Source: Janthinobacterium sp. J1-1
GTDB taxonomy: Bacteria > Pseudomonadota > Gammaproteobacteria > Burkholderiales > Burkholderiaceae_D
Reading direction: 5' to 3'
Assembly: GCF_030944405.1 (NCBI RefSeq)
Contig: NZ_CP132339.1
Location: 3,286,001-3,350,000 of the forward strand
Length of the DNA stretch: 64,000 nucleotides
Below the pieces are notes generated by a model that made no database searches, was not told the DNA's origin, and saw nothing but the letters and a program-made list of their open reading frames with translations. Positions 18,054-39,265 of this stretch are shown here, in pieces. The position numbers were made by a program, and so were the translations under genes. How positions within the stretch are numbered: the first letter of the stretch is position 1; every line of letters begins with the position of its first letter.

Positions 18054-21000
18054 ATGGTTCAGATGTCAAGGCGCCAGTTCCTCAGGGTAACTGGCGCGAC
18101 CATTGCCGGCTCCAGCCTCGCCATGCTCGGTTTTGCACCGGGCCAGGCGCTGGCGGAAGTGCGGCAATACAAGCTGTCCCGGACCACCGAGACACGCAAT
18201 ACCTGTCCTTACTGTTCGGTAGGATGCGGGGTCCTGTTGTACGGGCTGGGCGATGGCGCGAAAAACGCCGTCTCCAGCATCATTCACGTGGAAGGCGATG
18301 CCGATCACCCCGTCAATCGCGGCACCTTGTGCCCGAAAGGCGCCAGCCTGATCGACTTCATCCACAGCCCCAATCGCTTGAAAGTGCCCGAGTACCGCGC
18401 ACCGGGTGGCACCGAATGGCAACCGATCTCCTGGGATGTGGCGCTCGACAAGATCGCGCGCCTGATGAAGGATGACCGCGACGCCAACCTGATCGAAAAG
18501 AATGCCGACGGCAAGACCGTCAACCGCTGGCTTTCCACCGGCATGCTGGCCGCGTCCGCCGGCAGCAACGAAGTAGGGTATTTGACCCACAAGACAGTGC
18601 GCAGCATGGGGATGCTGACCTTTGATAATCAGGCGCGTGTATGACACGGACCGACGGTGGCAGGTCTTGCCCCGACGTTTGGCCGTGGCGCGATGACGAA
18701 TCATTGGGTCGATATCAAGAATGCCGATGTGATCCTGGTCATGGGCGGCAATGCAGCAGAAGCACATCCTTGCGGATTCAAATGGGTCACGGAAGCGAAG
18801 GCGCATAACAAGGCCAAGCTGATCGTGGTCGATCCGCGTTTTACCCGTACCGCATCCGTGGCAGATTACTACTGCGCCACGCGTACCGGCACGGACATCG
18901 TCTTCCTCGGCGCGATCATCAACTATCTGCTGACGAACGACAAGATCCAGCATGAGTACGTGCGCAACTACACGGACATGCCGTTTATCGTGCGCGAAGA
19001 CTATGCCTTCGAAGATGGCCTGTTTTCGGGTTTCGACAAGGAAAAAGGCAAGTACACCGACAAGGCCACCTGGGACTACGAAATCGGCGACGATGGTTAC
19101 GCCAAGGTCGACCCGACCCTGGAACACCCGCGCTGCGTCTACCAGATGATGAAGAAGCACTACGCGCGCTACACGACCGAAATGGTCGAACGCACGTGCG
19201 GCGTGTCGCCTGAGAAATTCCACAAAGTGGCGGAAGCACTGGCCTCGACCGCCGTGCCCGGCCGCGCCGGCACCATCCTGTATGCGCTGGGCTGGACCCA
19301 CCATTCGACCGGTGCGCAGACCATCCGCACGGGCGCCATGGTGCAGCTGTTGCTGGGCAATATGGGCATCGCCGGCGGCGGCATGAACGCCTTGCGCGGC
19401 CACTCGAACATCCAGGGCCTGACCGACCTGGGCCTGATGTCGAACCTGCTGCCGGGCTACATGACCCTGCCGAACGAGTCCGAACAAGACTTCGATGGCT
19501 ATATCGCCGCGCGCGCCACCAAGCCGCTGCGGCCGAACCAGCTCAGCTACTGGAGCAATTACCGCAAATTCCACGTCAGCTTTATGAAGACGTGGTGGGG
19601 CGACTTTGCCACGGCGGAAAACAATTACGCCTTCGACTACCTGCCGAAACTCGACAAGCCGTACGACCTGATGCAGGCCATCGAGCTGATGCACCAAGGC
19701 AAGATGACCGGCTATATCTGCCAGGGTTTCAATGTGCTGGCGTCCGCGCCGAACAAGCAGAAGGTCACCGAGGCGCTGTCGAAACTGAAGTTCCTCGTGA
19801 TCATGGACCCGCTGGCGGTGGAAACGGGCGAATTCTGGAAGCCGCACGGCCAGTACCACGAAGTCGATCCGAGCAAGATCATGACCGAGGTGTTCCGCTT
19901 GCCGACCAGCTGCTTCGCCGAAGAGCGCGGTTCGCTGGTCAGCTCCTCGCGCGTGCTGCAGTGGCACTGGCAGGCGGCCGAACCGCCGGGCCAGGCGCGC
20001 AGCGACCTGGAGATCATGTCGGGCCTGTTCCTGCGCATGCGCACCATGTACCAGAAAGAGGGCGGCAAGTTCCCGGACCCTATCGTCAACCTGACGTGGA
20101 ATTATGCGCAGCCGCATAACCCGCAGCCGGAAGAGATCGCTCGTGAATTCAACGGCAAGGCGCTGGCCGACCTGTACGATCCGAAGGACGCCACCAAATT
20201 GTTGGTGAAAAAGGGCGAGCAGCTGGCTTCGTTTGCGCAGCTGCGCGACGATGGCACGACCTCCAGCGGTTGCTGGATTTTCGCCGGCAGCTGGACGCAG
20301 GCGGGCAACCAGATGGGACGGCGCGACAACAGCGACCCGACCGGCATCGGCCAGACTTTGGGCTGGGCCTGGGCGTGGCCGGCCAACCGCCGCGTGCTGT
20401 ACAACCGCGCTTCCTGCGACCTGAAGGGCAAGGCCTTCGACCCGACCCGCAAGTTGATCGAGTGGAACGGCACCAACTGGAGCGGGGCCGATATTCCCGA
20501 CTTCAAGGTCGACGAACCGCCGGAAAACGGCATGGGGCCGTTCATCATGCTGGGCGAGGGCGTGGCGCGTTTCTTTGCGCGCGGCGCCATGGCCGAAGGG
20601 CCGTTCCCCGAACATTACGAGCCGTTTGAAAATCCGCTCGGCTACAACCCGATGCATCCGAAAAACCCGCAGGCGACCAGCAATCCGGCCGCGCGCGTGT
20701 TCGCCGATGACCGGAAAATGTTCGGCACCCATGAGGAATATCCGCATGTGGCGACCAGCTACCGCCTGACCGAGCATTTCCATTACTGGACCAAGCATGC
20801 ACGCCTGAACGCCATTATCCAGCCGCAGCAATTCGTTGAAATCGGCGAAGAGCTGGCGAAAAGCATCGGCGTGGTGGCCGGTGGCGAGGTCCGCGTCAGT
20901 TCCAAGCGCGGCCATATCATCGCCAAGGCCGTCGTCACCAAGCGCATCAAGGCTTTGATGATCGAGGGCAAGCAGGTGCATACCGTTGGTCTGCCGTTGC

Positions 21001-21125
21001 ACTGGGGCTTCACGGGCGTGGCCAAGCCGGGGTATCTGATCAATACCCTGACACCGGGCGTGGGGGATGCGAATTCGCAAACGCCGGAATTCAAGTCCTT
21101 CCTGGTGAAGGTGGAAAAAGCATGA
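18054..21125 (+). CDS. fdnG: formate dehydrogenase (FDH-N/O type) catalytic subunit, selenocysteine-containing
   Basis: The frame runs 1023 residues if the in-frame TGA at 18642-18644 (codon 197) is read as selenocysteine. The junction [23 protein letters not shown] matches the active site of E. coli FdnG/FdoG (Sec196). A SECIS hairpin follows the UGA, and selA, selB and tRNA-Sec lie downstream. The N-terminus has a twin-arginine signal (SRRQFLR, 5-11), then a [4Fe-4S] ligand set, Cys51, Cys54, Cys58 and Cys93. The rest is the molybdopterin-binding DMSO-reductase fold. It oxidises periplasmic formate to CO2. AGAGG six bases before ATG supports the start. Confidence 0.96.
18655..18674 (+). promoter_or_regulatory. 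bacterial SECIS element
   Basis: CGG (18655-18657) pairs with CCG (18672-18674) and GGCA (18659-18662) with TGCC (18668-18671), with one bulged T and an apical loop GGTCT. The loop is identical to that of the E. coli fdnG SECIS, and the stem begins 11 bases after the UGA, as needed for SelB binding. Confidence 0.85.
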
Positions 21126-21138
21126 TGGGAGCTCAATA

Positions 21139-22065
21139 ATGGCACTGCAATCCTTAGATATCCGGCGCCTGTCCGCCACCACCGTTACCCCGCCGCAGGC
21201 GAGGACGCCGGTGACGGGCACGGTCGCCAAGCTGATCGATGTGTCGAAGTGCATCGGCTGCAAGGCTTGCCAGACGGCGTGCATGGAATGGAACGACTTG
21301 CGCGATGAAGTCGGCGAAAACCATGGCACCTACGACAATCCGACCGACCTGACGCCGCAATCGTGGACGGTGATGCGTTTTGCCGAACACGAAAGCAACG
21401 ACGGCAACCTGGAATGGCTGATCCGCAAGGACGGCTGCATGCACTGCGAAGACCCGGGCTGTTTGAAAGCCTGCCCGGCGCCGGGCGCCATCGTGCAGTA
21501 CACCAACGGCATTGTGGATTTCCACCAAGAAAACTGCATCGGCTGCGGCTACTGCGTGGCCGGCTGTCCTTTCGACGTGCCCCGCATTTCGAAAAAGGAC
21601 GACCGCGCCTACAAGTGCACCTTGTGTTCGGACCGCGTGGCCGTCGGCCAGGAACCGGCCTGCGTGAAGACCTGTCCGACCGGCGCCATCGTGTTCGGCA
21701 CCAAGGAGGACATGAAGGTGCATGCGGAAGAGCGCATCGTCGACCTGAAGTCGCGCGGCTTTGAAAACGCCGGCCTGTACGATCCGCTGGGCGTGGGCGG
21801 CACGCATGTGATGTATGTGCTGCACCATGCCGACAAGCCGCGCCTGTACTCCAACCTGCCGGACCGGCCGCGGATCAGTCCGATGGTCGGCTTCTGGAAG
21901 GGCTGGTCCAAGCCGCTGGCGGTGGCCGGCATGGCCGCGACGGCGCTGGCCGGCTTCTTCCACTACACGCGTGTCGGTCCGAACGAGGTGAGCAAAGACG
22001 AAGAGCACGAGGCACTGGAAGAGGCCAACCGCATCCGGGAGGAGGAACAGCATGAGCCACGTTGA
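21139..22065 (+). CDS. fdnH: formate dehydrogenase iron-sulfur (beta) subunit
   Basis: This 308-residue protein has four [4Fe-4S] motifs in the standard FDH-N order: [44 protein letters not shown], and CTLCSDR...[11 protein letters not shown]-terminal membrane helix ([19 protein letters not shown], about 260-280) anchors it to the periplasmic face of the membrane. It carries electrons from the selenoprotein to the cytochrome b subunit. GGGAGC lies before the ATG, 13 bases after the fdnG stop, and the gene overlaps the next by 14 bases. Confidence 0.95.
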
Positions 22066-22723
22066 ACATCATGATGACAAGCTTCGCGACAAGGACGGCA
22101 ATCCGCTGATACAGCGCTACAACCCCAATGAGCGCACGAATCACTGGATCACGGCGATTACCTTCGTGATGCTGGCCTTGTCGGGCCTGGCCATGTTCCA
22201 TCCGTCGATGGCGTGGCTGGCGCTGCTGTTCGGCGGCGGGCAATGGACGCGCATCCTGCATCCGTTTGCCGGTCTGGTGATGTTTGTCTCGTTCGCGATC
22301 CTGGTGGTGCGTTTCTGGCACCACAACAAGTTCGAGGACGGCGACAAGCAGTGGCTCAAGCAGATCGATGACGTGCTCAACAACCGCGAAGAAAAGCTGC
22401 CGAAGATCGGCAAGTACAACGCCGGCCAGAAGATCCTGTTCTTCGTGCTGCTGTTCTGCATGTGCGGTCTGCTGCTGTCGGGCATCGTGATCTGGCGCGC
22501 GTATTTCGCGTTCTATTTCCCGATTCCCGTCATCCGCGCCGCTGCCTTGCTGCACTCGGTCTGCGCGTTCGGCATTATCTGCTCGATCATCGTGCATATC
22601 TATGCCGCCCTGTGGGTCAAGGGCTCGATCGGCGCCATGGTGCGCGGCACCGTCACGTATGGCTGGGCGCGCAAGCACCATCCTAAGTGGTTCGAGGCGG
22701 TGATACGCAACGACAAACACTAG
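22052..22723 (+). CDS. fdnI: formate dehydrogenase cytochrome b556 (gamma) subunit
   Basis: This 223-residue protein has four membrane helices. Conserved heme-ligand histidines lie in [44 protein letters not shown] and [22 protein letters not shown]. It passes electrons to the quinone pool and completes the formate dehydrogenase complex. It begins inside the end of the iron-sulfur subunit gene and is followed by a strong intrinsic terminator. Confidence 0.95.
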
Positions 22724-22747
22724 GGTTTGCCGCTTTAACCCGAGTGC

Positions 22748-22789
22748 AAGAACTGGGGTCAGTCGCAACGGACTGGCCCCGTTCTTTTT
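22748..22789 (+). terminator. intrinsic terminator after formate dehydrogenase genes
   Basis: GGGGTCAGTC (22755-22764) pairs with GACTGGCCCC (22771-22780) with one G-U pair, and the flanking AAGAAC (22748-22753) pairs with GTTCTT (22781-22786) across a single bulge. A T-rich run follows. The 16-bp stem lies between fdnI and fdhE. Confidence 0.75.
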
Positions 22790-22860
22790 ATCGATTAAAA
22801 TACTTTACGGCATAGCCGCCATTCGCTGGCTCTGCCTTGCTTTTTTTGATGGGAACTCCA

Positions 22861-23907
22861 TTGGTACAACGAATTCTTCAGCCAGGCGAAATCGAAGGCC
22901 TGGACCACAACGCGATTCCGCGCCTGCTGCTGCCGCAGCCCACCAGCCTGTTTACGGCGCGCGCCCTGCGCTTGCGCGAACTGGCGCAGGGAAACATCAA
23001 GGGCATACCGGTCGACGCCGGCATGCAGGGTTACCTGGTGCTGATGGCCGCGCTGGCCGATGCGCAGGCGGCGGTGGTGGCCAAACTGGCGCCCGACGCC
23101 GTGCCGGTGGCCGACGCCGATGCGCTGCGCCGCGCGGTCCAGCACCGCATGCCGGTGCTGCCCGTCAGCGGCGCCCGTCCGCCCGTCTGGCGCACGATCT
23201 TCCATGACCTGTTGACGGAACTGGCCGCCACGGCCGCATTGCAGCCGGCGCTGGCCACGGGCCTGACGCAAGTGCTGGCGCAGCTGCGCGCGCTGGACGA
23301 CGCGGCGCTGGACGCCTGCGCCGATGCCGTGCTCGATGAAAACGGCGACAACCTGAACCCCATGCATGCGCCGTTTGTCGCCGCCGCGCTGCAGATCCTG
23401 TGGTCCAGTTCGGCCAGCCAGCTGCGCGCCGCGCGCGTGCCCGACCTGGAGACGGGCGCGCTGTGCCCCGTCTGCGGTTCGCATCCGGTCGCCAGCGTGA
23501 TCCGCATCGGCGGCCAGTCGCAGGGCTACCGCTATCTGCACTGCGGCATCTGCGAAAGCGAATGGCATATGGTGCGCGTGAAATGCTCGACCTGCGAGCA
23601 GAACGGCAAGATCGCTTACCAGGGCCTGGACGCCAACGACGCGGCGCCATTCGATCCGGTCACGGCCAAGGACGACAAGCTGCCCAACAAGGCGAATGAC
23701 CCGAAAAAAGTGGCGCGCGCGGAAACCTGCGACGACTGCCATACCTACCGCAAGGTCTTCAACCAGGAGCACGATTACAACGTCGAGCCGCTGGCCGACG
23801 ACCTGGCCAGCCTGATGCTGGATCTGCTGGTGGGCGAGGCGGGCTACCAGCGCGCCAGCGGCAATCCGCTGCTGTGGCTCGGAAAAAGCGAGGGCCAGCA
23901 GTCATGA
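22861..23907 (+). CDS. fdhE: formate dehydrogenase accessory protein FdhE
   Basis: This 348-residue cytoplasmic protein has four CxxC pairs in its C-terminal half ([31 protein letters not shown]), as in FdhE, a rubredoxin-like factor needed for assembly or redox handling of respiratory formate dehydrogenases. A TTG start at 22861 is preferred because the family begins VQRILxPGEIE and TGGGAA lies five bases upstream; ATG 22849 and TTG 22837 are in-frame alternatives. The stop overlaps the selA start (ATGA). Confidence 0.92.
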
Positions 23908-25313
23908 CGACCGGGCAAACCGTGCGCCTGCCATCGGTCGACCGCATCCTGGGCGACACGGCTTGCCTGGAACTGATTGCGCAATACGGCCGCGTGCAGA
24001 CGCTGGCCGTCGCGCGCGCCGTGCTGGCCGAATTGCGTGCCGCCATGCTGGCTGGCGCAGTCTGCGAAGAGGGGGCGACAATCGCCGCCATTGCCGCGCA
24101 GATGGCCGAACGGCTGCAGGCGCAATCGCGCTCGCAGCTGCGCGCCGTCTTCAACCTGACCGGCACCGTCCTGCACACGAACCTGGGCCGCGCCCTGCTG
24201 CCCGACGCGGCTGTGCAGGCCGTGGTGGAAGCGCTGCAGTGGCCGATGAACCTGGAATTCGACCTGGAGACGGGCAAGCGCGGCGACCGCGACGACCTGG
24301 TCGAGGAACTGCTGCGCGAACTGACGGGCGCCGAAGCGGCCACCATCGTCAACAACAATGCGGCCGCCGTGCTGCTGATGTTGAATACCCTGGCGCAGGG
24401 AAAAGAGGTCATCGTCTCGCGCGGCGAGCTGGTGGAAATCGGCGGCGCCTTCCGCATTCCCGACGTGATGACGCGCGCCGGCGCCGTGCTGCGCGAAGTG
24501 GGCAGCACCAATCGCACCCATCCCCACGATTACGCCAATGGCGTCAATGAAGACACGGCCTTGCTGATGAAGGTCCATTGCAGCAATTACGCGATCACCG
24601 GATTCACCAAAAGCGTGGAGCTCGACGAACTGGTGCCGCTGGCGGCCATGCACGCGCTTCCAACCGCCGTCGACCTGGGCAGCGGCACCCTGGTCGACCT
24701 GGCGCAATATGGCTTGCCGCATGAAACCACGGTGCGCGAAACGATAGAGGCGGGCGCCGACCTGGTCACCTTCAGCGGCGATAAATTGCTCGGTGGCCCG
24801 CAATGCGGCGTGATCGTCGGCCGTGCCGATTTGATCGCGAAGATCAAGCGCAATCCGTTAAAACGCGCGCTGCGCGTGGGGAAACTGACGCTGGCGGCTC
24901 TGGAACCCGTGCTGCAGCTGTACCGCGCGCCCGACCTGCTGGCCGAACGCCTGACCACGCTGCGTTTGCTGACGCGCCCTGCGGCCGCCATGTGCGCCCA
25001 GGCGGACACCCTGCTGCCGTTGCTGCAAGCCGTGCTGGGCTCCGCCTATGTGGTCGCGTCGGAAGCGATGAAAAGCCAGATCGGCAGCGGCGCCTTGCCG
25101 GTCGACCAGTTGCCCAGCTTCGGCCTGGCGATCCGCAGCGCGCCCGGTTCGCGCCTGAGCAATCCCCTGGGCACGCTGGAGCAGCGCCTGCGTGGCCTGC
25201 CTTGCCCCGTAATCGGGCGCATCGCGCAGGACACCCTGTGGCTGGACCTGCGCTGCCTGGAAGCGTCGCATCAGGCGGCATTCGTGGCGCAACTCGGTGA
25301 GCTGAGCGCATGA
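23904..25313 (+). CDS. selA: L-seryl-tRNA(Sec) selenium transferase
   Basis: This 469-residue PLP enzyme converts Ser-tRNA(Sec) to Sec-tRNA(Sec) using selenophosphate. It has the N-terminal LPSVDRILG domain, [17 protein letters not shown], the [13 protein letters not shown] cofactor region and the PLP lysine in [19 protein letters not shown] (about residue 297). The length matches the family (463 in E. coli). It starts inside the fdhE stop and overlaps selB by four bases, so the three genes are translationally coupled. Confidence 0.97.
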
Positions 25314-27265
25314 TCGTCGGCACCGCAGGCCATATCGACCATGGCAAGACCACCCTCACGCGCGCGCTGACGGGGGTGCACACGGATCGCCTGAAGGAAG
25401 AGCAGGCGCGCGGTATCTCGATTGAACTCGGCTACGCCTATCTGCCGCTGGCGGACGGCACGGTGCTGGGCGTGATCGACGTGCCGGGCCACGAAAAATT
25501 CATTCGCACCATGGCCTCTGGTATCACCGGCATCGACTTCGCGCTGCTGGTGGTGGCGGCCGACGATGGCGTGATGCCGCAAACGCGCGAGCACCTGGCG
25601 ATTCTGCAGCTGCTGGGCGTGACGCGCGGCGCCGTGGCACTGACCAAGATCGACCGCGTTGATGCGGCCCGCATCGCGCAGGTGGAGCGTGAGATCACCG
25701 CGCTGCTGGCGGCCACGCCGCTGGCCGGCAGCCCGTTGTTTCCCACTGCCGCCAGCGTTGACAACGATCCCGGCGTGGCGGCGCTGCTGGCGCACCTGGC
25801 GCAGGTGGCGCGCAGCCTGCCGCAGCGCGATGAACGGCGTCTGTTCCGCCTGGGCGTGGATCGCGTGTTTACCTTGTCGGGGCAGGGCACGGTGATTACC
25901 GGCACGGCGCTGGCAGGCACGGCGACAGTGGGCGACACCCTGCAGCTGGCGCCAGCAGGCTTGGAGACGCGCGTGCGCAGCATCCATGCGCAGAACCGCG
26001 CGGCTGACGCCGGCGTGGCGGGCCAGCGCCTGGCGCTGAACCTGGCCGGCATCGGCCGCGACGCCATCGAGCGCGGCAGCTGGATCGTCGCGCCCGAGCT
26101 GGCCCAGTGTTCCGAGCGCATCGACGTGGAACTGAGCCTGCTGCCCGACAGCGGCGTGCACCTGAAAGCCTGGTCGCCGCTGCATGTGCACCTGGGCGCG
26201 GCGCACCAGCTGGCGCGCGCCGTGGTGCTCGATGGCGATACCTTGTCACCCGGCCAGACGGCCCGCGTGCAGCTGGTGTTCGAGGCACCCATGCATGCCG
26301 TGCCCGGCGACCGTTTCGTGGTGCGCAATGCGCAGGCCACGCAGACGGTGGGCGGTGGCATGGTGCTCGACCCGTTCGGGCCCGCGCGCAAGCGGCGCAG
26401 CCCGGCCCGGCTGGCCTGGCTCGACGCGCTGACTGCCTTTGTCGCGCATGGCAACTACGCGTCGCTGCTGGGGCAAAGCCCGCTGGGGCTGAGGGAGTCC
26501 CTGCTGGTGCGGCTGTCGCTGCTGCCTGCCGCCGTGATCGCCCTGCCGGACGACACCCGCCGCATCGCCCTGCGCGGCGGCGACGCCCTGCTGCTGGCGC
26601 CGCAAGCGCTGGCGGCATTGGACGAGCGCGTGCTGGCGGCCCTGGCGACCTTCCATGCGCGCGCCCCCGATGAGGCGGGACCGGAACTGTGGCGCCTGAA
26701 ACGCATCGTCGACGCCGAGATGGAAGACGCCTTGTGGAGTTTCCTGGTCGACGGCTTGCTGGCCGGCGGCGCCGTCATGGCGCGCGGCGCGCACCTGCAC
26801 CTGCCCGATCATAGCGTCGAGCTGACGACGGCAGAGCAGGCCATGGCCGAGCCGATGCTGGCGGCGCTGGAGCAGGGCCGTTTCGAGCCGCCATGGACAC
26901 GCGATTTGTCGCGTACATTCGGCGTGGAAGAAGAGGCAACGCGCAGGCTGTTGCGCAAACTGGCCAAGGCGGGCCAGATCAACCAGGTGGTGCACGACCT
27001 GTTCTATCATCCGGCCGCACTGGCCGAGCTGGCGCTGCTGGTGCGCCAGCTGGCGCAACAGGCGGAAGCGCAAGGAGGCTTGCCGGAAGGGTCAGGATCC
27101 GTGGGCGCCGCCACCTTCCGCGACGCCAGCGGCCTGGGCCGCAAGCGGGCGATCCAGGTCTTGGAATATTTCGACCGGGTCGGTTATACTCGACGGGTTG
27201 GCAATGGGCATCTATTACGCCCGAACGCGCAGTGGTCTTATGCCACCGCTCCAGCCAGCAATTAG
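25310..27265 (+). CDS. selB: selenocysteine-specific elongation factor
   Basis: This 651-residue GTPase delivers Sec-tRNA(Sec) to UGA codons that carry a SECIS. The N-terminal EF-Tu-like part has the G1 motif [14 protein letters not shown]3 DVPGHEKF and G4 TKID, then domains II-III. The C-terminal third (about 400-651) is made of winged-helix modules, the last of which binds the SECIS loop ([26 protein letters not shown]). It overlaps selA by ATGA and ends 12 bases before the tRNA-Sec gene. Confidence 0.97.
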
Positions 27266-27277
27266 TACCAGCACCGC

Positions 27278-27373
27278 GGAAAGCACACTCATCCGGTGAT
27301 GTGGCCGGGCTTCAAACCCGGTGGAGGGCGTCAGACGTTCTCCCGTAGGTTCGACTCCTACTGTTTTCCGCCA
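27278..27373 (+). tRNA. selC: selenocysteine tRNA (anticodon TCA)
   Basis: This 96-base gene has all marks of a bacterial tRNA-Sec. There is an 8-bp acceptor stem (GGAAAGCA with TGTTTTCC, one G-U), discriminator G, and encoded CCA at 27371-27373. The anticodon arm is CCGGG-CTTCAAA-CCCGG with TCA at 27312-27314. It also has a long variable arm (GGAGGGCGTCAGACGTTCTCC) and the T loop GGTTCGACTCC. It closely follows selB, so the whole decoding set except selD is in one place. Confidence 0.96.
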
Positions 27374-27471: not shown

Positions 27472-27489
27472 CACATCAGGAACATGACC

Positions 27490-27777
27490 ATGAGCGAAGC
27501 AACCTTTACTTTCCGGGTCGATGAGAGCCTGAAAGAACAATTCACCACAGCCGCCAAGGGCCGCGACCGTACCGGGGCCCAGCTACTGCGCGACTTCATG
27601 CGTGACTTTGTTCGGCAGCAGCAGGAAGCGGCAGAACACGACGCCTGGTTCCGTCGCCAGGTGCAGGGCGGCCTGGACTCGGCCAATTCCGGAGACCTCA
27701 TCCCGGCTGCCGAGGTTGAAGCCAGGTTCGCTGCCAGGCGCGCCGCCACACGTCGCCGGCTGGGAGCGACCGAGTGA
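27490..27777 (+). CDS. ParD/RHH-type antitoxin
   Basis: This 95-residue protein has an N-terminal ribbon-helix-helix (TFTFRVDESLKEQFTTAAKGRDRTGAQLLRDFMRDFV), followed by an extended charged toxin-binding tail ending RRLGATE. RHH antitoxins bind their own promoter and neutralise a ParE/RelE toxin. AGGA is eight bases before ATG 27490; an in-frame ATG at 27484 is too close to it. The next gene is a toxin of the matching family, overlapping by one base. Confidence 0.85.
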   Translation: MSEATFTFRVDESLKEQFTTAAKGRDRTGAQLLRDFMRDFVRQQQEAAEHDAWFRRQVQGGLDSANSGDLIPAAEVEARFAARRAATRRRLGATE

Positions 27778-28066
27778 TGGAGTTGTCTGGACGCCAGAGG
27801 CGATCCAGGACCGCAGCGACATCTACGACCACATCGAAGCCGACAACCCGGCCGCCGCGCTCGCCCTCGATGAGCTGTTTGCGGAAAAGGCGGGCCGTCT
27901 GGCCGATCATCCAGGCCTGGGCAAACCTGGCCGTGTAGCGGGTACCCGTGAGCTGGTAGCGCACCAGAATTACATCCTTGTCTATGACACTTCCGGCGGC
28001 TTGATAAGGATACTGCGTGTGCTGCATGCCGCCCGCCAGTGGCCACCTTCCCGCGTTGGCACTTGA
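27777..28066 (+). pseudogene. RelE/ParE-family toxin, frameshifted at its start codon
   Basis: A complete ParE-like sequence is readable from 27782 (VVWTPEAIQDRSDIYDHIEADN, then VAGTRELVAHQNYILVYD and ILRVLHAARQWPPSR). The expected ATG at 27777, overlapping the antitoxin TGA, is in another frame. ATG GA followed by GTT GTC TGG lacks one base for M-E-V-V-W. The ATG frame instead ends at a TAG after about 53 codons, and the toxin frame has no ATG, GTG or TTG near its beginning. Either the toxin is inactivated by a one-base deletion or the read has an error. The antitoxin is intact. Confidence 0.7.
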
Positions 28067-28099: not shown

Positions 28100-29143
28100 T
28101 TACGACGACCGCTTGCTCGCAAACACCGCCCCCGCCAGCACGATAAAGGTACCGACAATCACCTTCTGCCAGGTGCTCGGCACGCCGGCCAGGATCAGCA
28201 CGTTGTTGATCAGGGTGACCAGCAGCACGCCCAGCAAAGTGCCGCTGACGCTGCCGCTGCCGCCCGTGATGCGCGCGCCGCCGAGGATCACGGCGGCGAT
28301 CACGTCGAGCTCCATGCCGACCAGGTCGAACGGGTTGGCCAGGCGCGTGCTCGACACATGCACGATACCCGCCAGGCCGGCCAGGAAGCCCGCGTAGCCG
28401 AACACGAACAGGTGCACGGTGCGCAGCTTGTAGCCCAGGCGTTCGGCGATCGGCAGGCTGCCGCCGATGGCGTACACGGCGCGGCCCATCAGGGTGCGGT
28501 TCAGCAGCCACCAGGTCAGGCCGGCGGCAGCGACCAGCACCAGCACGGTGGCCGGCAGCACCGCGTGCACGCCGGTGGCCGTGTCGTGGCGCCAGACGGC
28601 CAGCTTGCCAAAGGCATCCATCGAATGGGGCACGTTCATGAAGAACACGGTGCCGATAAAGGTCAGCAGAATGCCGCGGTACAGGTACTGCGTGCCGATG
28701 GTGACGATCAGCGACGGGGCTTTCAGCCAGTCGACCAGCAGGCCGTTGAGCACGCCCAGCAGCGTACCGCCGGCGGCGCCGGCGACCAGGATCACCACCA
28801 TGCTGGTTTCGGGGAACTGCGTCATCACCAGCTTGGTGATGCCGTACATGGTCAGCGCCGCGATGGCCGCGAACGACACGTCGATGCCGCCGGCGGCCAG
28901 CACGATCATCACGCCCAGCGCGAACAGGCCCAGCACCGTACAGGCGCGCACGATGTCGAACACCATCGCCAGCTGGAAGAACTCGGGATTGATCGCGCCC
29001 ACCACCAGACAGACGGCGACGATCAGGGCCAGGGTGAACAGCTGCGGATGGCGCGCCAGGCGCTGGCGCAGCGTGATTTTCGGTGCGCCCAGGTCGGCTG
29101 CCGCCAGGGTCACGCTGCTGTTTTTCATGGTTGTGGTATTCAT
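28100..29143 (-). CDS. ribose-type sugar ABC transporter permease (RbsC-like)
   Basis: This 347-residue inner-membrane protein has about eight to ten hydrophobic helices and the family motifs GGIDVSFAAIAAL and GGARITGGSGSVSGTLLGVLL. It forms the channel of a carbohydrate-uptake-2 (CUT2) importer. Its start overlaps the ATPase stop (ATGA) and it is the last gene of the deoxyribose locus. The importer has two different permeases (here and 32017-33006), as in some autoinducer-2, rhamnose and other CUT2 systems. Confidence 0.92.
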   Translation of the reverse strand: MNTTTMKNSSVTLAAADLGAPKITLRQRLARHPQLFTLALIVAVCLVVGAINPEFFQLAMVFDIVRACTVLGLFALGVMIVLAAGGIDVSFAAIAALTMYGITKLVMTQFPETSMVVILVAGAAGGTLLGVLNGLLVDWLKAPSLIVTIGTQYLYRGILLTFIGTVFFMNVPHSMDAFGKLAVWRHDTATGVHAVLPATVLVLVAAAGLTWWLLNRTLMGRAVYAIGGSLPIAERLGYKLRTVHLFVFGYAGFLAGLAGIVHVSSTRLANPFDLVGMELDVIAAVILGGARITGGSGSVSGTLLGVLLVTLINNVLILAGVPSTWQKVIVGTFIVLAGAVFASKRSS

Positions 29144-30705
29144 GCTGCCACCTTGCTGTCGGAAATAAGGGCGTGGTACAGGGTTTCTTCGGCCAGGCCG
29201 TCGGCGTCGAAGGTATTGGCGATCTGGCCCTTGCGCATCATCAGGATGCGGTCGCAGTTCTGCAGCAGCTCGGGCAGGTCGTCGCTGACCAGCACCACCG
29301 CCAGGCCGTCTTCGGCCAAACGCTGGATGATGCGGTAGATGATGTCCTTCGAGCCGACATCGACGCCGACCGTCGGGCCGTGCAAAATCAGCACGCGCGG
29401 ATGGATCGCCAGCCAGCGGCCGATCAGCACGCGCTGCTGGTTGCCGCCCGACAGCGACTGCACCGGGCGGTCGACGTCGGGCGTGGCGATCTGCAGGTCC
29501 TTCACGGTGGCCAGCGCCAGCGCCTGCGCGCGGCCGGCGTCGAGCGCGCCGAAGCGGCTGCGCAAGGTATTCAAGACCGTGGTGATGATGTTTTCGCGGA
29601 TCGATTTGTCGAGGAACAGGCCTTCGCTCAAACGGTCTTCCGGCACATAGCCGATGCGGTGGGCGATCGCGTCGCCCGGATTGCGCAAGGTGACCTCTTT
29701 GCCGTCGAGGAAAATCGATCCGCTGTCCGCGCCCTGCACACCGACCAGGGCCAGCGCCAGTTCATTGCGGCCCGAATCGAGCAGGCCCGTGATGCCGAGG
29801 ATTTCGCCCTTGTGCAGGGTCAGGTCGACGCCGGAAAAATAGCCGCGCCGGCCCAGGCCCCGCACGCGCAGCAGTTCGCCTTCGCCATCGACATGCAGGC
29901 GGCTGCTGCGGTAACGGCCGCCATCGAGCTGCTTGCCCGTCATGGCGTGCGTCAGTTCGGCCTTGGTGAAGTTGGCGATCGGCCCTTGCACGACTTTGGC
30001 GCCGTCGCGGAAGACGATGGCCTGGCCGCCGATGGCGTAGCATTCATCGAGCTTGTGGCTGACGAACAGCACCGCCACGCCTTGTGCGCGCAAGCCTTCG
30101 ATGACGGATACCAGGTTGTCGACTTCCTTTTGCGTCAGCGAGGTGGTCGGTTCATCCATGATCACCATCTTGGCGCTGGTGGCCACCGCGCGCGCGATCG
30201 CCAGCAGCTGGCGCGTGGCGATCGGCAGTTCATCCGCGCGGGTGGAAAGGAAATGGGGATCGGACGGCAGGCCGACGGCGGCCAGCGCGCGTGCGGCGGT
30301 GGCGTCGACGGCGCGGCGGTCGAAGCGGCGCGCCAGGCGGCCATTGCCGGCCACCAGCTGCTCGCTCAGGGCCACGTTTTCGGCCACGCTCATGTTCGGC
30401 AGCAGCGACAGATCCTGGTACACGGTCTCGATGCCGAGCGCCAGCGACTGCAGCGGCGTCAGCGCCTCATGCGGCTGGCCATTGATGGTGATGCGCCCTT
30501 CGCTGGGAGGATGGGCGCCGGAGATGATCTTGATCAGGGTGCTCTTGCCGCAGCCGTTTTCGCCCAGCAAGTGATAAATTTCGCCGGCTTCGATGGTCAG
30601 ATCGACGCCGCGCAGCGCATGCACGCCGGCATAGCGCTTGTGGATGCCTTCGAGCTGCAAAAATGTCTTCGACGTGGCCGCCGGAATTGGGGTGGTACTG
30701 GTCAT
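29140..30705 (-). CDS. ribose-type sugar ABC transporter ATP-binding protein (RbsA-like)
   Basis: This 521-residue double ATPase has a complete first cassette (Walker A GENGCGKST about residue 53, Walker B MVIMDEPTTSLT) with a degenerate signature, PIATRQLLAIARAV. In the second cassette the Walker A is replaced by LDSGRNELA but the signature SLSGGNQQRVLIGRWL is intact. This asymmetry is normal for CUT2 transporters. It powers import of the sugar bound by the periplasmic protein encoded just upstream. A strong hairpin lies between the two genes. Confidence 0.93.
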   Translation of the reverse strand: MTSTTPIPAATSKTFLQLEGIHKRYAGVHALRGVDLTIEAGEIYHLLGENGCGKSTLIKIISGAHPPSEGRITINGQPHEALTPLQSLALGIETVYQDLSLLPNMSVAENVALSEQLVAGNGRLARRFDRRAVDATAARALAAVGLPSDPHFLSTRADELPIATRQLLAIARAVATSAKMVIMDEPTTSLTQKEVDNLVSVIEGLRAQGVAVLFVSHKLDECYAIGGQAIVFRDGAKVVQGPIANFTKAELTHAMTGKQLDGGRYRSSRLHVDGEGELLRVRGLGRRGYFSGVDLTLHKGEILGITGLLDSGRNELALALVGVQGADSGSIFLDGKEVTLRNPGDAIAHRIGYVPEDRLSEGLFLDKSIRENIITTVLNTLRSRFGALDAGRAQALALATVKDLQIATPDVDRPVQSLSGGNQQRVLIGRWLAIHPRVLILHGPTVGVDVGSKDIIYRIIQRLAEDGLAVVLVSDDLPELLQNCDRILMMRKGQIANTFDADGLAEETLYHALISDSKVAA

Positions 30706-30737
30706 GAATCGATTCTTTCTGCGATAGGCGTTGCCAG

Positions 30738-30770
30738 CATCGGCCTGGCACGCAGGGTGCCAGGCCGATG
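30738..30770 (-). terminator. 14-bp perfect hairpin between binding-protein and ATPase genes
   Basis: CATCGGCCTGGCAC (30738-30751) pairs perfectly with GTGCCAGGCCGATG (30757-30770) around a five-base loop. It follows the binding-protein stop by 14 bases, with no long T-run. Such hairpins in ABC operons usually block 3' decay or give partial termination, so the binding protein is made in excess over membrane parts. Confidence 0.6.
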
Positions 30771-30784
30771 GTCAGGGCGCCGTT

Positions 30785-31795
30785 TTAGAATGCGTATTTC
30801 TTGTAGTTGGATTTATCCACTTCCACCCAGGCCTTGCCGGTGACGATAATGCCCACGCCAGGACCTTTTTTCACGGTGACCGCGTTATAGCCCGGTACGC
30901 CCATGTCCATGCCGTTGGTGATGGTCTTGCCCTGCACCAGCATCAGCGCCGCCTTGTTCATCATGATGCCGGCGTCTTTCGGATCCCAGAAGGCGATGCC
31001 GCCGACCGCACCCGATTCCAGGAACTTGGCCGCTTCGCTTGGCAGGCCGGTACCGTACACGCAGATCTTGCCGGTCAGGCCAGCTTCTTCGATGGCGCGG
31101 CCGATGCCCAGCACGTCCAGCGAGGACGAACCCTGGAAGCCCTTGATGTCCGGATGCTTGCGCAGGATTTCCTTCGCCTTGCCGTAGGCTTTCTCGGCGT
31201 CGTTGGCGGTTTCGTTCTTGGCGTCGACCAGGGTCATCTTCGGATACTTCTTGGCATTGTTGGCGCCGCCGTCGGCCCATTGCACCTGCGACTGGCTGCC
31301 CAGGGAGCCCAGCAGGGACGACCATTTGCCGGTCTTGCCCATGCACTCGGCCAGGCGCTCGTTCAGGCGCGCGCCGTAGGCCGTGTTGTCGAACGCTTCG
31401 ATGTCGACCAGGGTGTTCTTCTGGTTGTCCGCTTCATGCGTGACGACCTTGATGCCGCGGTCCAGTGCGCGTTTGAGCACCGGTTCCAGGGTCAGCGGGT
31501 CCATCGAGACGACGGCGATCGCATCGACCTTTTTCGCCACCAGGTCTTCCACCAGGCGTTGCTGCTGGGCGGCGTCGGACTGGGCCGGGCCGATCTGACG
31601 CGCATTGACCACGCCCACATTGGCGGCGCCGAATTCCTTGACGCCCACTTCCATGCGGTTGAACCAGCTCATGCCGGTGATTTTGACGACGGTGACGATA
31701 TCGACCGGCTTTTTATTCTGTGCGTGCAGCACGCCGGCAACGGACAGGGTGCCCAGGGCGATGATGGCGGCGGCGCATTTTGTTTTCGTAAGCAT
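30785..31795 (-). CDS. periplasmic sugar-binding protein of CUT2 ABC transporter (RhaS/LsrB-like)
   Basis: This 336-residue protein has a Sec signal peptide (cleavage after GVLHA, about residue 25) and the two-lobed type I periplasmic-binding fold. Features include ARQIGPAQSDAAQQQRLVEDLVAKKVDAIAVV, DRGIKVVTHEADNQ and FWDPKDAGIMMNKAALMLVQGK. The sequence is nearer to the rhamnose/AI-2 binding proteins than to RbsB. The neighbours (deoC, kinase, mutarotase, DeoR) suggest 2-deoxyribose or a deoxynucleoside-derived sugar, but this is context only. A 221-base gap separates it from the permease gene upstream. Confidence 0.88.
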   Translation of the reverse strand: MLTKTKCAAAIIALGTLSVAGVLHAQNKKPVDIVTVVKITGMSWFNRMEVGVKEFGAANVGVVNARQIGPAQSDAAQQQRLVEDLVAKKVDAIAVVSMDPLTLEPVLKRALDRGIKVVTHEADNQKNTLVDIEAFDNTAYGARLNERLAECMGKTGKWSSLLGSLGSQSQVQWADGGANNAKKYPKMTLVDAKNETANDAEKAYGKAKEILRKHPDIKGFQGSSSLDVLGIGRAIEEAGLTGKICVYGTGLPSEAAKFLESGAVGGIAFWDPKDAGIMMNKAALMLVQGKTITNGMDMGVPGYNAVTVKKGPGVGIIVTGKAWVEVDKSNYKKYAF

Positions 31796-32016
31796 GTTGT
31801 CTCCAAACCCTCGTTATTTATGCGTTGAACCAGGAGGGGACTGGGTCAGCGTCGCGCAAAGTGTTCCGAGTTCGAAATTCGTTGAATGAAGATGTCGAGA
31901 ATCACTCCGATACTGCGTCACAAATGCGCGCCAGGCACCAGCCTGGCTGTGCTTTGTTCCTTGTCTCAAAGCGATTTCGACACATTCAATCATCAACAAA
32001 TTTCTAACCCTGAACA

Positions 32017-33006
32017 CTAGCGCCTTGAGAAAAAACGGTAATCGGCGAGATTGATGCGGGCCGAAGCCAGGAAGCACAGCAGCAGCAGGCCCCATGCACA
32101 ATCGCGGAAGAAGTTCGAGATATCGAGCAGGTTGAAGGTGCTCGACAGCAGTTGCAGGGCGGTGGCCGAGAAGAACAGGCACACCATGCGGCCATAGCCG
32201 CCTTGCGGACGCACGCCGGCCATCACCGCCACCAGGATGGCGATCAGCAGGTAGGAGCTGCCGTAGTCGGCCTTCACGCTGGCGGTGCGCGCGGCGATGA
32301 TCACGCCGGCCAGGCTGGCCAGCACGCCGCATAGCGCGTAGGTGGTGACCAGCATGCGCGTGCCGGGAATGCCGGCGTAGCGCGCGGCCTTGGCGTTGGT
32401 GCCCAATAAAAACAGGCGGATGCCGAAAGGGCTGTAGCGCAGCAGCCAGCCGATCGCCAGCAGCACCACCATGAAGATGATGAAGGGGATCGGTACGCCG
32501 AACAGGTTTTCATTGCCGATCATCGACATCGGCTCGGCACTGGCCAGGCGTACGCTGGAACCCTTGCTCAAGACCACGGCGGCACCGGTGAAGATCAGCT
32601 GCGTGCCCAGGGTGCACAGGATGGGCGTCAGGCCCACGCCGGCGATCAGCCAGCCGTTGAGCAGGCCGCCGAGCAGGCCCGTGACCAGCGCGACCAGCAC
32701 GAACATGCCCGTATAGCCCCACGGCGTGGCGTCCGCGTCGACCAGCAGCGGCACCACGGTGGCGGCCACCACGCCGGCCAGGTTGGCCATGCCGAGACCG
32801 GACAAATCGATGCCGCCGTTCCCGGCGATCATGGCCAGCGAGACGCCGATGGCCAAGAGGGCCAGCTCGGGCAGCTGGCTGGCCATCGACTGGAAGTTGT
32901 ACACGTCGAGGAAGTCGCCATGCGACAGCACGGTCGCGGCAACCAGGATCAGGACGTTAATGCCCACCAAAAAATTCAGCTGTGGGTCGGAAAACTGGCG
33001 CTTCAT
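32017..33006 (-). CDS. ribose-type sugar ABC transporter permease (second permease)
   Basis: This 329-residue membrane protein is of the RbsC family, with AGNGGIDLSGLGMANLAGVV near residue 60, PILCTLGTQLIFTGAAVVLSKGS and a late VMAGVRPQGGYGRM. It differs clearly from the other permease of the locus, so the channel is probably a heterodimer. It lies 45 bases downstream of the kinase gene on the same strand. Confidence 0.9.
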   Translation of the reverse strand: MKRQFSDPQLNFLVGINVLILVAATVLSHGDFLDVYNFQSMASQLPELALLAIGVSLAMIAGNGGIDLSGLGMANLAGVVAATVVPLLVDADATPWGYTGMFVLVALVTGLLGGLLNGWLIAGVGLTPILCTLGTQLIFTGAAVVLSKGSSVRLASAEPMSMIGNENLFGVPIPFIIFMVVLLAIGWLLRYSPFGIRLFLLGTNAKAARYAGIPGTRMLVTTYALCGVLASLAGVIIAARTASVKADYGSSYLLIAILVAVMAGVRPQGGYGRMVCLFFSATALQLLSSTFNLLDISNFFRDCAWGLLLLCFLASARINLADYRFFSRR

Positions 33007-33051
33007 GGCGACTCCAAAAGGTGTTCAGAAAACGAAAACTCGGCGTGAAAA

Positions 33052-33990
33052 TCAGGCCTTTGCCAGCAGCGCAACGACATCGGCGCGCTGCGGCATCGAC
33101 GGCGCCGTGCCGGCGCGCGTGACCGAAATGGCGGCCAGCGCCGCGGCGAAGCGGGCAGCTTCCTTCGGCGTGGCGCCTTCGGCCAGCGCGGCCGCAAAGC
33201 CGCCATTGAAGGCGTCGCCGGCGCCGGTCGTTTCCAGCACGGGACCGGCGTTGAATGGCGCGATCAGGACCGATTCGGTGGCGCTGTGCAGCAGGGCGCC
33301 TTGCGAACCGAGCGTGATCAGGGCGCAGCCGACGCCACGCGCCAGGAAGGCATCGCCGGCGGCGCGCGCTTCGTCCAGGTTCGTCACGGGCAGGCCGGTC
33401 AGGATCGCGGCTTCGTGTTCGTTCGGGGTGATGAAGTCGCACAGCGGATAGACGGCGTCGTCAAACGGCAGCGCGGGGGCGGGATTGAAGACGGTGAGAG
33501 TGCCGGCGGCGCGGGCGATCTGCAGGCCGCGCAGGGCGGCATCGGCCGGTTGTTCGAGCTGGGTCACAAACACGCGCGCGGCGGCGATATCGTCTGCCGC
33601 CGCGTCCACATCGGCCACGCCGATCAGGCTGGCCGCACCGGATACCACGATGATGGCGTTGTCACCGTTCTTCTCGTTCAGATAGATAAAGGCGGCGCCG
33701 GTCGGATGCGTGTCGACCTGTTTCACGCGCGGCGTGATGCCGTCGCCGCGCCACAGGGCCAGCGCATTGTCGCCGAACGAGTCGCGCCCGAGGGTGCTGA
33801 TAAAGGTGACGTCGGCGCCGGCGCGTGCGGCGGCGACGGCCTGGTTCGAGCCCTTGCCGCCGGGGCCCATGGCAAAGCCGGAGCCGGCGATGGTCTGGCC
33901 CACGTCGGGCATATGGGCGGCGCGGAACGCCAGGTCGGCGACATAGATGCCGAGGATGGCGACGCCACGCTTGTCATGAACGGCGCTCAT
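33052..33990 (-). CDS. ribokinase-family sugar kinase (probable deoxyribokinase)
   Basis: This 312-residue PfkB-family kinase has the N-terminal GPGGKGSNQAVAAARAGADV and the C-terminal catalytic ETTGAGDAFNGGFAAAL, whose aspartate (about residue 261) is the base. The family phosphorylates ribose or deoxyribose at O5. Next to deoC and under a DeoR-type regulator, 2-deoxyribose is the likely substrate (as for DeoK), giving the DeoC substrate deoxyribose 5-phosphate. Ribose cannot be excluded. Its start lies one base after the stop of the mutarotase gene. Confidence 0.88.
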   Translation of the reverse strand: MSAVHDKRGVAILGIYVADLAFRAAHMPDVGQTIAGSGFAMGPGGKGSNQAVAAARAGADVTFISTLGRDSFGDNALALWRGDGITPRVKQVDTHPTGAAFIYLNEKNGDNAIIVVSGAASLIGVADVDAAADDIAAARVFVTQLEQPADAALRGLQIARAAGTLTVFNPAPALPFDDAVYPLCDFITPNEHEAAILTGLPVTNLDEARAAGDAFLARGVGCALITLGSQGALLHSATESVLIAPFNAGPVLETTGAGDAFNGGFAAALAEGATPKEAARFAAALAAISVTRAGTAPSMPQRADVVALLAKA

Positions 33991-33991
33991 C

Positions 33992-34444
33992 TTATGCCTC
34001 CGGGGCGATCACGCCCTTTTTGAACACGAAGCAGCCGTAGAAGCGGCGCTCGCCGGTGGCGATCACGCAGTAGGCGGTGCGCGCCACGTCGTAGAAGGCA
34101 AAGCGCTCGATCGAGCCCATGATGCGCTCGCGCCCTTCGGCATGATTGATTTCCAGCTGGACTTCCTGCTGCACCGGCAGCACGTTGTCAGGCTCGCCGA
34201 CCACTTCCATGCGGTGGGCTGCCACCTCGACGGCGGTGTCGAGCGCCATTACGGACAAGATGGCGCGCGCGGCCTCTTTGGTGCCGACGCCGTCGATGCG
34301 CAGCACCTTGCCCAGCACCGTCTGGCGGGCCACCGAATCGGCGGGGAAATTGGCGTCGCACAGGACCAGTTCATCACCGTGGCCCATGGCGCGCAAGGCT
34401 TGCAGCACGTCCGCATTCAACAGCGGGTCGATATTCTTTAACAT
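33992..34444 (-). CDS. RbsD/FucU-family sugar mutarotase
   Basis: This 150-residue protein has the FucU-like N-terminus (MLKNIDPLLNADVLQALRAMGHGDELVLCDANFPADS), whose histidine near 22 is catalytic, and the C-terminal FAFYDVARTAYCVIATGERRFYGCFVFKKGV with the second active-site tyrosine. It interconverts sugar anomers so that the kinase receives the right form. GGAGACAAG precedes the ATG. It is FucU-like rather than RbsD-like, but no fucose genes are present. Confidence 0.9.
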   Translation of the reverse strand: MLKNIDPLLNADVLQALRAMGHGDELVLCDANFPADSVARQTVLGKVLRIDGVGTKEAARAILSVMALDTAVEVAAHRMEVVGEPDNVLPVQQEVQLEINHAEGRERIMGSIERFAFYDVARTAYCVIATGERRFYGCFVFKKGVIAPEA

Positions 34445-34563
34445 CTTGTCTCCAGATTGTTATTCAATTTTTTTGCAGTGGTCAGGCCAGGTTGCCACTC
34501 TTTGGTGGCTAGTCTGGCGCTGCGGTTACAGTTTGCGGTGGTGTCGTTGGCTTCGGTGGTGGT

Positions 34564-34595
34564 GTCGGATTACGCGCCGATGGCGCTAATCCGAC
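34564..34595. repeat. dispersed intergenic palindrome (GTCGGATTA...TAATCCGAC, REP-like)
   Basis: GTCGGATTA (34564-34572) pairs with TAATCCGAC (34587-34595), with an inner GCGCC/GGCGC stem, one bulged C and a GAT loop. From memory, GTCGGATTA...TAATCCGACCTACG is a widespread intergenic repeat in beta- and gammaproteobacteria. It sits in the 178-base gap between the aldehyde dehydrogenase and mutarotase genes and could also weaken read-through. Confidence 0.65.
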
Positions 34596-34622
34596 CTACG
34601 CCGACCGGCGCCGATACGAGCA

Positions 34623-37016: not shown

Positions 37017-37021
37017 ATGAA

Positions 37022-38101
37022 TTATCCGATCGCGTGGCGGTGGAAAGCCGAGTAACGGCCGGTAACGTGGTGTTCGAGCTGGCGTTCGATATCGGCCAGC
37101 AAGGAGGAGGCGCCGATGCGGAACAGGTCCGGCTCCAGCCACTCGCGTCCCAGTTCTTCCTTCATCAGGATCTGGTAGTTGAGGATGTCCTTGGCGGCGG
37201 AGACGCCGCCGGCCGGCTTGTAGCCCACCTTGTAGCCGGTACGCTCTTGGTAGTCGCGGATCATGCGCAGCATGATCAGGCTTACCAGCAGGGTGGCGTT
37301 GGTCGCTTCCTTGCCGGTCGAGGTCTTGATGAAATCGGCGCCGGCCATCATGCAGATCATCGAGGCCTTGGCCACGTTGCGCATGGTTTTCAGTTCGCCG
37401 GTGGCCAGGATGGCTTTCACGTGCGCGTCGCCGCAGGCTTCGCGGAAGTCGCGCATCTCGGCATACAGCGCTTTCCAGTTACCGGTCAGCACGTGTTCGC
37501 GGGTGATGACGATATCGATCTCGGAGGCGCCATCGCGCACCGACGCTTCGATTTCCTTCAGCTTCAGGTCGTGCGGTATCAGGCCGGCGGGGAAGCCGGT
37601 CGATACGGCGGGCACCGGAATGCCGCTGCCGTCCAGCGCTTCGACGGCGGTCGCCACGTAGCGGTGATACACGCAGATGGCGCCCGTGTGCAGCTGGCGG
37701 TCGCCAAAGCCGATCGCGTCGAGCAGGTCCTGGCGCACCGGCGTGATGGCCTTGGCGCACAGGCGCTTGACGCGTTCGGTGGTGTCGTCTCCGGACAGGG
37801 TGGTCAGGTCGATGCAGCTGATGGCTTTCAGCAGCCAGCCGGCCTGCGCGTCTTTCTTGACGGAGCGGCGGCCGGGCAGGGTGGCGATGCGGCGTTCGGC
37901 GGCCGACAGGTTGACGCGGATGTCGTCGAACCAGCTGCTGTCGAAAGGCACGCCGGGATTGCGCGCATGGCCGTGGGTGCCGGCCGGCACGATCGCTGGC
38001 GTACTGGCCGGGACGATCACTGGTGCCGCTGCAGCTTTGGCGGCTTCTGTGCGGGCGCCGGCTGCCGGAGCGACGCGCGGTGATTTGGAGGTAGTTGTCA
38101 T
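37022..38101 (-). CDS. deoC: deoxyribose-phosphate aldolase, human-DERA type
   Basis: This 359-residue enzyme splits 2-deoxyribose 5-phosphate into acetaldehyde and glyceraldehyde 3-phosphate. The Schiff-base lysine is in GADFIKTSTGKEATNATL and the second lysine in VGYKPAGGVS. It is longer than E. coli DeoC (259) and resembles animal DERA, sharing VLTGNWKALY, ATGELKTMRNVAKASMI and the C-terminal DIERQLEHHVTGRYSAFH. An Ala/Pro-rich N-terminus of about 40 residues is extra. It is the first gene of the minus-strand operon; the DeoR-type operator lies 150 bases upstream. Confidence 0.94.
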   Translation of the reverse strand: MTTTSKSPRVAPAAGARTEAAKAAAAPVIVPASTPAIVPAGTHGHARNPGVPFDSSWFDDIRVNLSAAERRIATLPGRRSVKKDAQAGWLLKAISCIDLTTLSGDDTTERVKRLCAKAITPVRQDLLDAIGFGDRQLHTGAICVYHRYVATAVEALDGSGIPVPAVSTGFPAGLIPHDLKLKEIEASVRDGASEIDIVITREHVLTGNWKALYAEMRDFREACGDAHVKAILATGELKTMRNVAKASMICMMAGADFIKTSTGKEATNATLLVSLIMLRMIRDYQERTGYKVGYKPAGGVSAAKDILNYQILMKEELGREWLEPDLFRIGASSLLADIERQLEHHVTGRYSAFHRHAIG

Positions 38102-38251
38102 GGTTGTGGCGACGCCGCGCAGTGGTGCACAGGCCGGTCCGATTGATGGTGGGCGGTGGGCATAGCTATTAATCTCCGTGAACGCACTGGGCGCGTTTCA
38201 TTATTGTTACGGTGGTTGGGCGAACTGAACATAATTCGCGCCACAGATTTA

Positions 38252-38267
38252 TGTTACGCCAATAACA
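38252..38267. promoter_or_regulatory. DeoR-type operator (TGTTA-N6-TAACA)
   Basis: TGTTACGCCAATAACA has the same arms and spacing as the E. coli DeoR operator TGTTAGAATTCTAACA; the inverted repeat extends one base each side (ATGTTA...TAACAT). Half-sites occur at 38205-38209 (TGTTA) and 38295-38299 (TAACA). It lies between the divergent deoC operon and the deoR-like gene, so it can control both. Confidence 0.75.
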
Positions 38268-38357
38268 TTTAGTTGTGCAACCACTTTTTTCTAATAACAT
38301 GAAGAATAGTTGCTGATACAATCCGCACTCACCGTGATGACGAACGAAAGTATTACC

Positions 38358-39140: not shown

Positions 39141-39265
39141 ACGGCTGGCAAAGCCGCGTTGTTTGTTTGCTACCATGCAAAAGAGATTCCATTACGTCAA
39201 GCTGGCGACAGTGTTACCATCAGGTCGATGGCGGGCATGGCGCCACGCAGCGCAAGAAGGCAAGC

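Follow-up and report, generated by a model that had tools for sequence, protein, structure and literature searches.

The locus described here raises the question whether the ability to insert selenocysteine (Sec) can be carried, inherited and lost as one block of genes. It is located in a stretch of 64,000 nucleotides from Janthinobacterium sp. J1-1, referred to as the window, in which a formate dehydrogenase gene with an in-frame TGA is followed by fdhE, selA, selB and selC. An earlier note on this DNA had described the arrangement as a compact Sec island that may be inherited or lost as a whole, with selD as the only missing piece. From our analyses of the sequence it appears very likely that the window harbors a complete Sec-decoding block together with its own client, formate dehydrogenase-N.

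The client gene fdnG (18054..21125, on the plus strand) is predicted to specify the alpha subunit as a selenoprotein. Its TGA at codon 197 (18642-18644) is the sole internal stop of its frame, which comprises 1023 codons with the TGA counted, and the protein read through this codon reaches 1479 bits with TIGR01553 (cut-off 814), confirming the continuous frame proposed before. A selenocysteine insertion sequence (SECIS) element at 18639..18697, on the same strand, scores 81.2 bits with RF01989 (SECIS_3; gathering threshold 63). Its apical loop is GGTCT, presumably the same as that of E. coli fdnG. Codon 197 was compared in 84 loci, 80 obtained by a scan of named genomes and four stretches of the genomes G002 and G024, with FT58W counted twice (L024 and L096). 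Among the 80 fdnG matches covering the codon, 77 have TGA, two TGC and one TGT; three further matches do not reach it. The GGTCT loop is present in all 78 TGA rows (window included) and in none of the three cysteine (Cys) rows, and the hairpin shows few changes across the TGA rows. Conservation of the loop with TGA and its absence with Cys is the pattern expected of a working SECIS, in line with the hairpin reported in the earlier note. Within the genus, 33 of 34 fdnG matches contain exactly one TGA and no other stop, the remaining one being a Cys copy of G002. The UGA, the SECIS and their conservation are thus observed directly. The TGA could also be taken as a sequencing error or a true stop, making fdnG a pseudogene or two genes. 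Nothing was found in favour of this possibility, and its occurrence at the same codon in 77 of 80 related copies, the maintained loop and the genus matches render it negligible. A sense-codon fdnG accompanied by a decayed selC, which the earlier note had named as contrary evidence, was not seen in the relatives compared; all three Cys copies adjoin UGA copies.

The remaining genes of the block are located on the same strand as fdnG. Next are fdnH for the iron-sulfur beta subunit (21139..22065; TIGR01582, 464 bits, cut-off 335) and fdnI for the cytochrome b gamma subunit (22052..22723; TIGR01583, 202 bits, cut-off 116); all three formate dehydrogenase-N subunits therefore exceed curated NCBIfam cut-offs. 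They are followed by fdhE for a formate dehydrogenase accessory protein (22837..23907; TIGR01562, 252 bits, cut-off 188), selA for L-seryl-tRNA(Sec) selenium transferase (23874..25313; TIGR00474, 590 bits, cut-off 268), the start codons of both being uncertain, and selB for the Sec-specific elongation factor (25310..27265; TIGR00475, 447 bits, cut-off 242). The last gene is selC for tRNA-Sec (27278..27373), which comprises 96 bases including GCCA and, by eye, an 8-bp acceptor stem with one G-U pair. The Rfam model RF01852 matches 27278-27369 with 69.9 bits (gathering threshold 47), and ARAGORN calls a tRNA-SeC with anticodon TCA, trimmed to 27281-27369. NCBIfam, Rfam and ARAGORN agree with the earlier note on SelA, SelB and the tRNA. 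The selA open reading frame as listed overlaps fdhE, the ATG of selB overlaps the selA stop, and 12 bases separate the selB stop from selC. This arrangement suggests that the genes may be co-transcribed as a single transcript. Together with a selD gene elsewhere in the genome, the constituents by which Sec decoding is recognized are present: selA, selB, selC and a UGA-containing gene with a downstream SECIS.

From these data we infer Sec insertion and enzyme activity in the following way. SelA would convert Ser-tRNA(Sec), the selC transcript being the tRNA, to Sec-tRNA(Sec), with selenophosphate supplied by SelD, which is encoded 1.29 Mb from the block. SelB, with Sec-tRNA(Sec) and GTP bound, would also bind the SECIS hairpin that directly follows codon 197, so that Sec is inserted at the UGA in place of termination. 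FdnG, FdnH and FdnI, matured with the aid of FdhE, would constitute a membrane formate dehydrogenase-N predicted to pass electrons from formate to quinone. In E. coli, formate dehydrogenase-N is also made from fdnGHI, with the UGA and the SECIS inside the coding sequence. There, fdnGHI, selAB, selC and selD are found at separate sites, unlike the genes of the window block.

The statement that selD is missing holds for the block only. The genome search that had been proposed, with absence of selD as an outcome speaking against the trait, detected the gene at G000:C1:4600654-4601583 (TIGR00476, 428 bits), directly behind mnmH, and its absence from the genome was rejected. Of 40 genus genomes, 37 were of good quality, with completeness of 90% or more and contamination of 5% or less. 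All 37 contain selD and mnmH, including four without selC, selA and UGA-fdnG; this separate retention of selD and mnmH is a direct observation. Selenouridine is therefore general in the genus and selenocysteine optional, and selD is placed with the general trait. MnmH also requires SelD for tRNA selenouridine, which would account for the place of selD outside the block and probably for its retention. In the accessible part of their article, Romero et al. (2005, PMC1273633) attribute the occurrence of selD in the absence of Sec to ybbB (= mnmH). The same is seen here, as selD and mnmH are retained without Sec decoding, and the two genes are adjacent in the genome of the window and in all 30 examined genomes of its group. 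A difference is found in G002, G003, G011, G022 and G023, where the two genes are widely separated or on different contigs.

If the block is a unit, its genes should be present or absent together. The three markers selC, selA and UGA-fdnG were detected in an identical set of 33 of 40 genus genomes. For this count, selC was accepted only at 67.9 bits or more, and tRNA-Sec matches of about 40-52 bits were excluded; one of them, a match of 52 bits in G029, is above the cut-off and was removed by hand because G029 has no selA match, which changed the tally from 34 to 33 of 40. Four of the seven genomes without the markers, G003, G011, G022 and G032, are 98-100% complete, and three, G023, G029 and G037, are 82-88% complete. 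In the group to which the window belongs in the selD tree, all 30 genomes have kept the markers. The co-occurrence of fdnG, selA and selC is thus directly visible: Sec-specific genes come and go together with their one detected client. The block contains what only Sec decoding needs, so that its gain or loss as a unit would be possible.

The arrangement is not restricted to the genus. In 80 loci of named genomes retrieved via SelA, the genes are arranged as fdnG-H-I-fdhE-selA-selB as far as each locus extends, and L045 and L051 contain an additional fdn copy. Among the families represented are Oxalobacteraceae, Alcaligenaceae, Burkholderiaceae and Comamonadaceae. A tRNA-Sec gene is located behind selB in 76 of these loci; of the four without it, L012, L068 and L074 are truncated at contig ends, and the remaining one is FT58W. 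In a sample of 195 genomes from the family of the window, searched for fdnG at E<=1e-200, UGA-fdnG was found in 49, Cys-fdnG only in two, and selA in 61, consistent with the patchy occurrence of Sec users noted earlier. All 49 genomes with UGA-fdnG contain selA. In 48 of them it is downstream of fdnG on the same strand, at a distance below 4 kb; the exception is G065, with selA on the opposite side of fdnG. Both genomes with Cys-fdnG only are devoid of selA.

Presence and absence can be compared directly at one site, which differs from that of the window. A stretch of 29-30 kb in G002 contains the block together with a second fdn operon. The flanks of this stretch are collinear and joined in G003, G011 and G023, and nothing of the block is found there. 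The flanks are spaced by about 115 bases in G011 and about 77 bases in G003; they also adjoin each other in G023 (83% complete), where 0.7 kb from the right edge of the stretch is retained. The left edge of the empty junction is the same within a few bases in the three Sec-less genomes, the right edge within 0.8 kb. The first gene pair of the stretch has homologues elsewhere in G003 and G011 with 72-73% identity. The suggestion that the trait is inherited or lost as one block is therefore supported for the three markers and at this site. Flanks of the block also differ between lineages, as anticipated in the earlier note, both among genera and within the group of the window.

To the extent that "island" implied a recent mobile insertion, the term is not supported for the window, whose own group keeps the markers throughout and whose block falls with its relatives. 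In trees of FdnG (87 rows) and of SelA plus SelB (82 rows), the blocks of Janthinobacterium cluster together (support 99), with the UGA block of G002 as the first branch. Both trees follow taxonomy roughly, with Massilia, Duganella, Rugamonas and Pseudoduganella mixed and Burkholderiaceae split. As the simplest reading of the history we infer one loss of the block as a whole. According to this reading, which we consider rather probable, a single deletion removed the block from the ancestor of the Sec-less Janthinobacterium group, and the block of the window was simply inherited. The shared edges of the empty junction in three Sec-less genomes and the sister relationship, in two trees, of the UGA block of G002 to the remaining Janthinobacterium blocks are in favour of it. 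An rpoBC tree, comprising 16 of 20 genomes and rooted on G068 (G023, G032, G029 and G037 gave no match), points in the same direction: G003, G011 and G022 form one group (97/99) apart from G002, which is found beside Sec users (85/100). Sec-using Duganella-type genomes are next to both the Sec-less group and the Sec users. The mnmH tree agrees in separating four Sec-less genomes from G002 (96/87).

Several observations weigh against the block as a compact unit tied to its client, or against its single loss. In the selD tree, built from 36 of 38 genomes with selD (G004 and G016 left out), G002 is placed among the Sec-less genomes, in conflict with rpoBC and mnmH. This tree was rejected as a species tree because of that conflict, which is perhaps caused by the long branches of G002 and G022. 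In the rpoBC tree, 8 of 16 rows, including G003, G011 and G009, are flagged for odd base composition, and the branching order of Sec-less genomes, Sec users and Duganella-type genomes is weakly supported (63/84). G002 and the group of the window have different DNA flanking the block, so that a single loss would need a move as well. The agreement in 33 genus genomes concerns the three markers among the genes of the block. The block is not always compact, since selC of FT58W is located about 16 kb from selB (L095:6833-6936, L096:4618). Finally, 12 of the 195 family genomes contain selA without an fdnG match, which means that the trait can occur apart from this client in the wider family. These twelve genomes may use another selenoprotein client; they are G055, G056, G061, G071, G074, G094, G097 (with two selA matches), G103, G116, G134, G151 and G194.

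Part of this evidence would fit an insertion, by which the block, as a movable island, passed from a related donor into G002 and perhaps earlier into the lineage of the window. An insertion could explain the 29-30 kb of G002 that three relatives lack between collinear flanks, and also the nesting of G002 among Sec-less genomes in the selD tree. Furthermore, the flanks are unlike those of the other genera compared, except for a probable generic chemotaxis-receptor match, and transfers of such blocks have been published, as far as the accessible text of PMC1794560 goes. Yet ten Pfam-scanned proteins in or beside the G002 stretch, which are not every open reading frame there, include no integrase or transposase, and no flanking tRNA was found. 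In segments of 2 kb, the guanine-plus-cytosine content amounts to 0.56-0.70 within the stretch, with the maximum in the sel part, and to 0.55-0.65 around it, and the G002 block groups with Janthinobacterium blocks and with no other genus. Insertion is thus regarded as possible, though unlikely. Polarity could not be derived from outgroup flanks, as the other genera compared share neither context; exceptions are the probable chemotaxis-receptor matches and a match near window position 44 kb in three Cupriavidus loci. For the window itself, inspection by eye of the open reading frames listed for 1-46 kb (size limits 100 or 250 amino acids) revealed no mobility genes.

A second fdnG with Cys at codon 197 was detected in G002, Duganella guangzhouensis and D. 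levis; the loci concerned are L093/L094, L154 and L051. The three genes form one group (SH-aLRT 100), which is a separate branch among the Oxalobacteraceae sequences of the FdnG tree. The Cys operon of G002 converges on selC from the far side, and D. levis has the two operons in tandem, as fdnGHI(UGA)-fdnGHI(Cys)-fdhE-selA-selB. No second copy with Cys was seen in the other loci of the 84-locus set, and none was found in the window genome at E<=1e-100. The G002-only stretch also contains a gene for an AbiEii-type nucleotidyltransferase (L094:4678-5727), about 0.9 kb from Cys-fdnG. With considerable reserve, it may be proposed that the Sec block of Oxalobacteraceae is a relocatable cassette, kept whole, which has repeatedly attracted a Cys formate dehydrogenase-N operon of one lineage. 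Being independent of selenium, the Cys form might stand in for the Sec form under selenium shortage and could thereby permit loss of Sec. In Methanococcus maripaludis, Cys and Sec isoforms are used according to selenium supply, as stated in the accessible part of PMC11097638. Both forms in one genome are likewise found in G002, D. levis and D. guangzhouensis. Here, by contrast, the Cys and Sec operons are side by side at the Sec block.

The region behind selC is variable. Sixteen of 20 named Janthinobacterium loci carry behind selC a homologue of the window sequence from 39347 onward. In the window (28100-39140) and in G009/L005, a deoxyribose-catabolism operon is found behind selC; L006 shows its first genes, and L012 ends before that point. 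This operon contains genes for an ABC transporter, a PfkB-type kinase and an aldehyde dehydrogenase, deoC and a DeoR regulator. In FT58W (L095), the operon is located between selB and selC, and the displaced selC is 99% identical to that of the window over 104 bases. Twelve bases, GTCGGTTATACT, are present upstream of FT58W selC and, by eye, within selB of the window; GTCGGTTATACT could perhaps act as a promoter. Duplication of selC around the deoxyribose operon was considered and rejected: no selC remnant was found at window positions 39080-39420 or directly behind FT58W selB, and no additional selC was seen in the stretch of G009. A RelB-like and RelE/ParE-like toxin-antitoxin pair (27484..28066, plus strand; toxin start codon uncertain) is the neighbour of selC, 110 bases behind it and outside the trait. 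The toxin matches ParE_toxin PF05016 (68.7 bits) and TIGR02385 (40.2 bits, over the cut-off), and the RelB model reaches 27 bits, below its cut-off of 50. About 0.6 kb is missing from the same spot in G009/L005, and the pair is missing in L006 too.

The block belongs to a published kind, and its gene order recurs in other families of Burkholderiales. In the accessible portion of their article, Zhang et al. (2006, PMC1794560) describe shared selA-selB-selC operons with a neighbouring fdhA in Sec users of Alphaproteobacteria, Betaproteobacteria and Pseudomonadales, argue that transfer of the trait requires clustering, and treat selD as evolving apart. Gene content, clustering, the formate dehydrogenase client, the separate selD and the argument that clustering enables transfer are the same for the window block, and no essential difference is apparent from that portion; added here are presence and absence within one genus and an empty site. 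Further transfers with formate dehydrogenase as the sole selenoprotein gene are reported in the part of PMC5029168 available. Judged from titles and the beginnings of abstracts, none of the publications listed for Janthinobacterium and selenocysteine deals with this block. What the genus provides is a case in which marker genes for the 21st amino acid share presence or absence with their one detected client, and the gene for the selenium donor stays. By comparing G002 with G003 and G011, and with Duganella strains carrying Sec and Cys copies, the question why bacteria keep or drop selenocysteine becomes directly testable.

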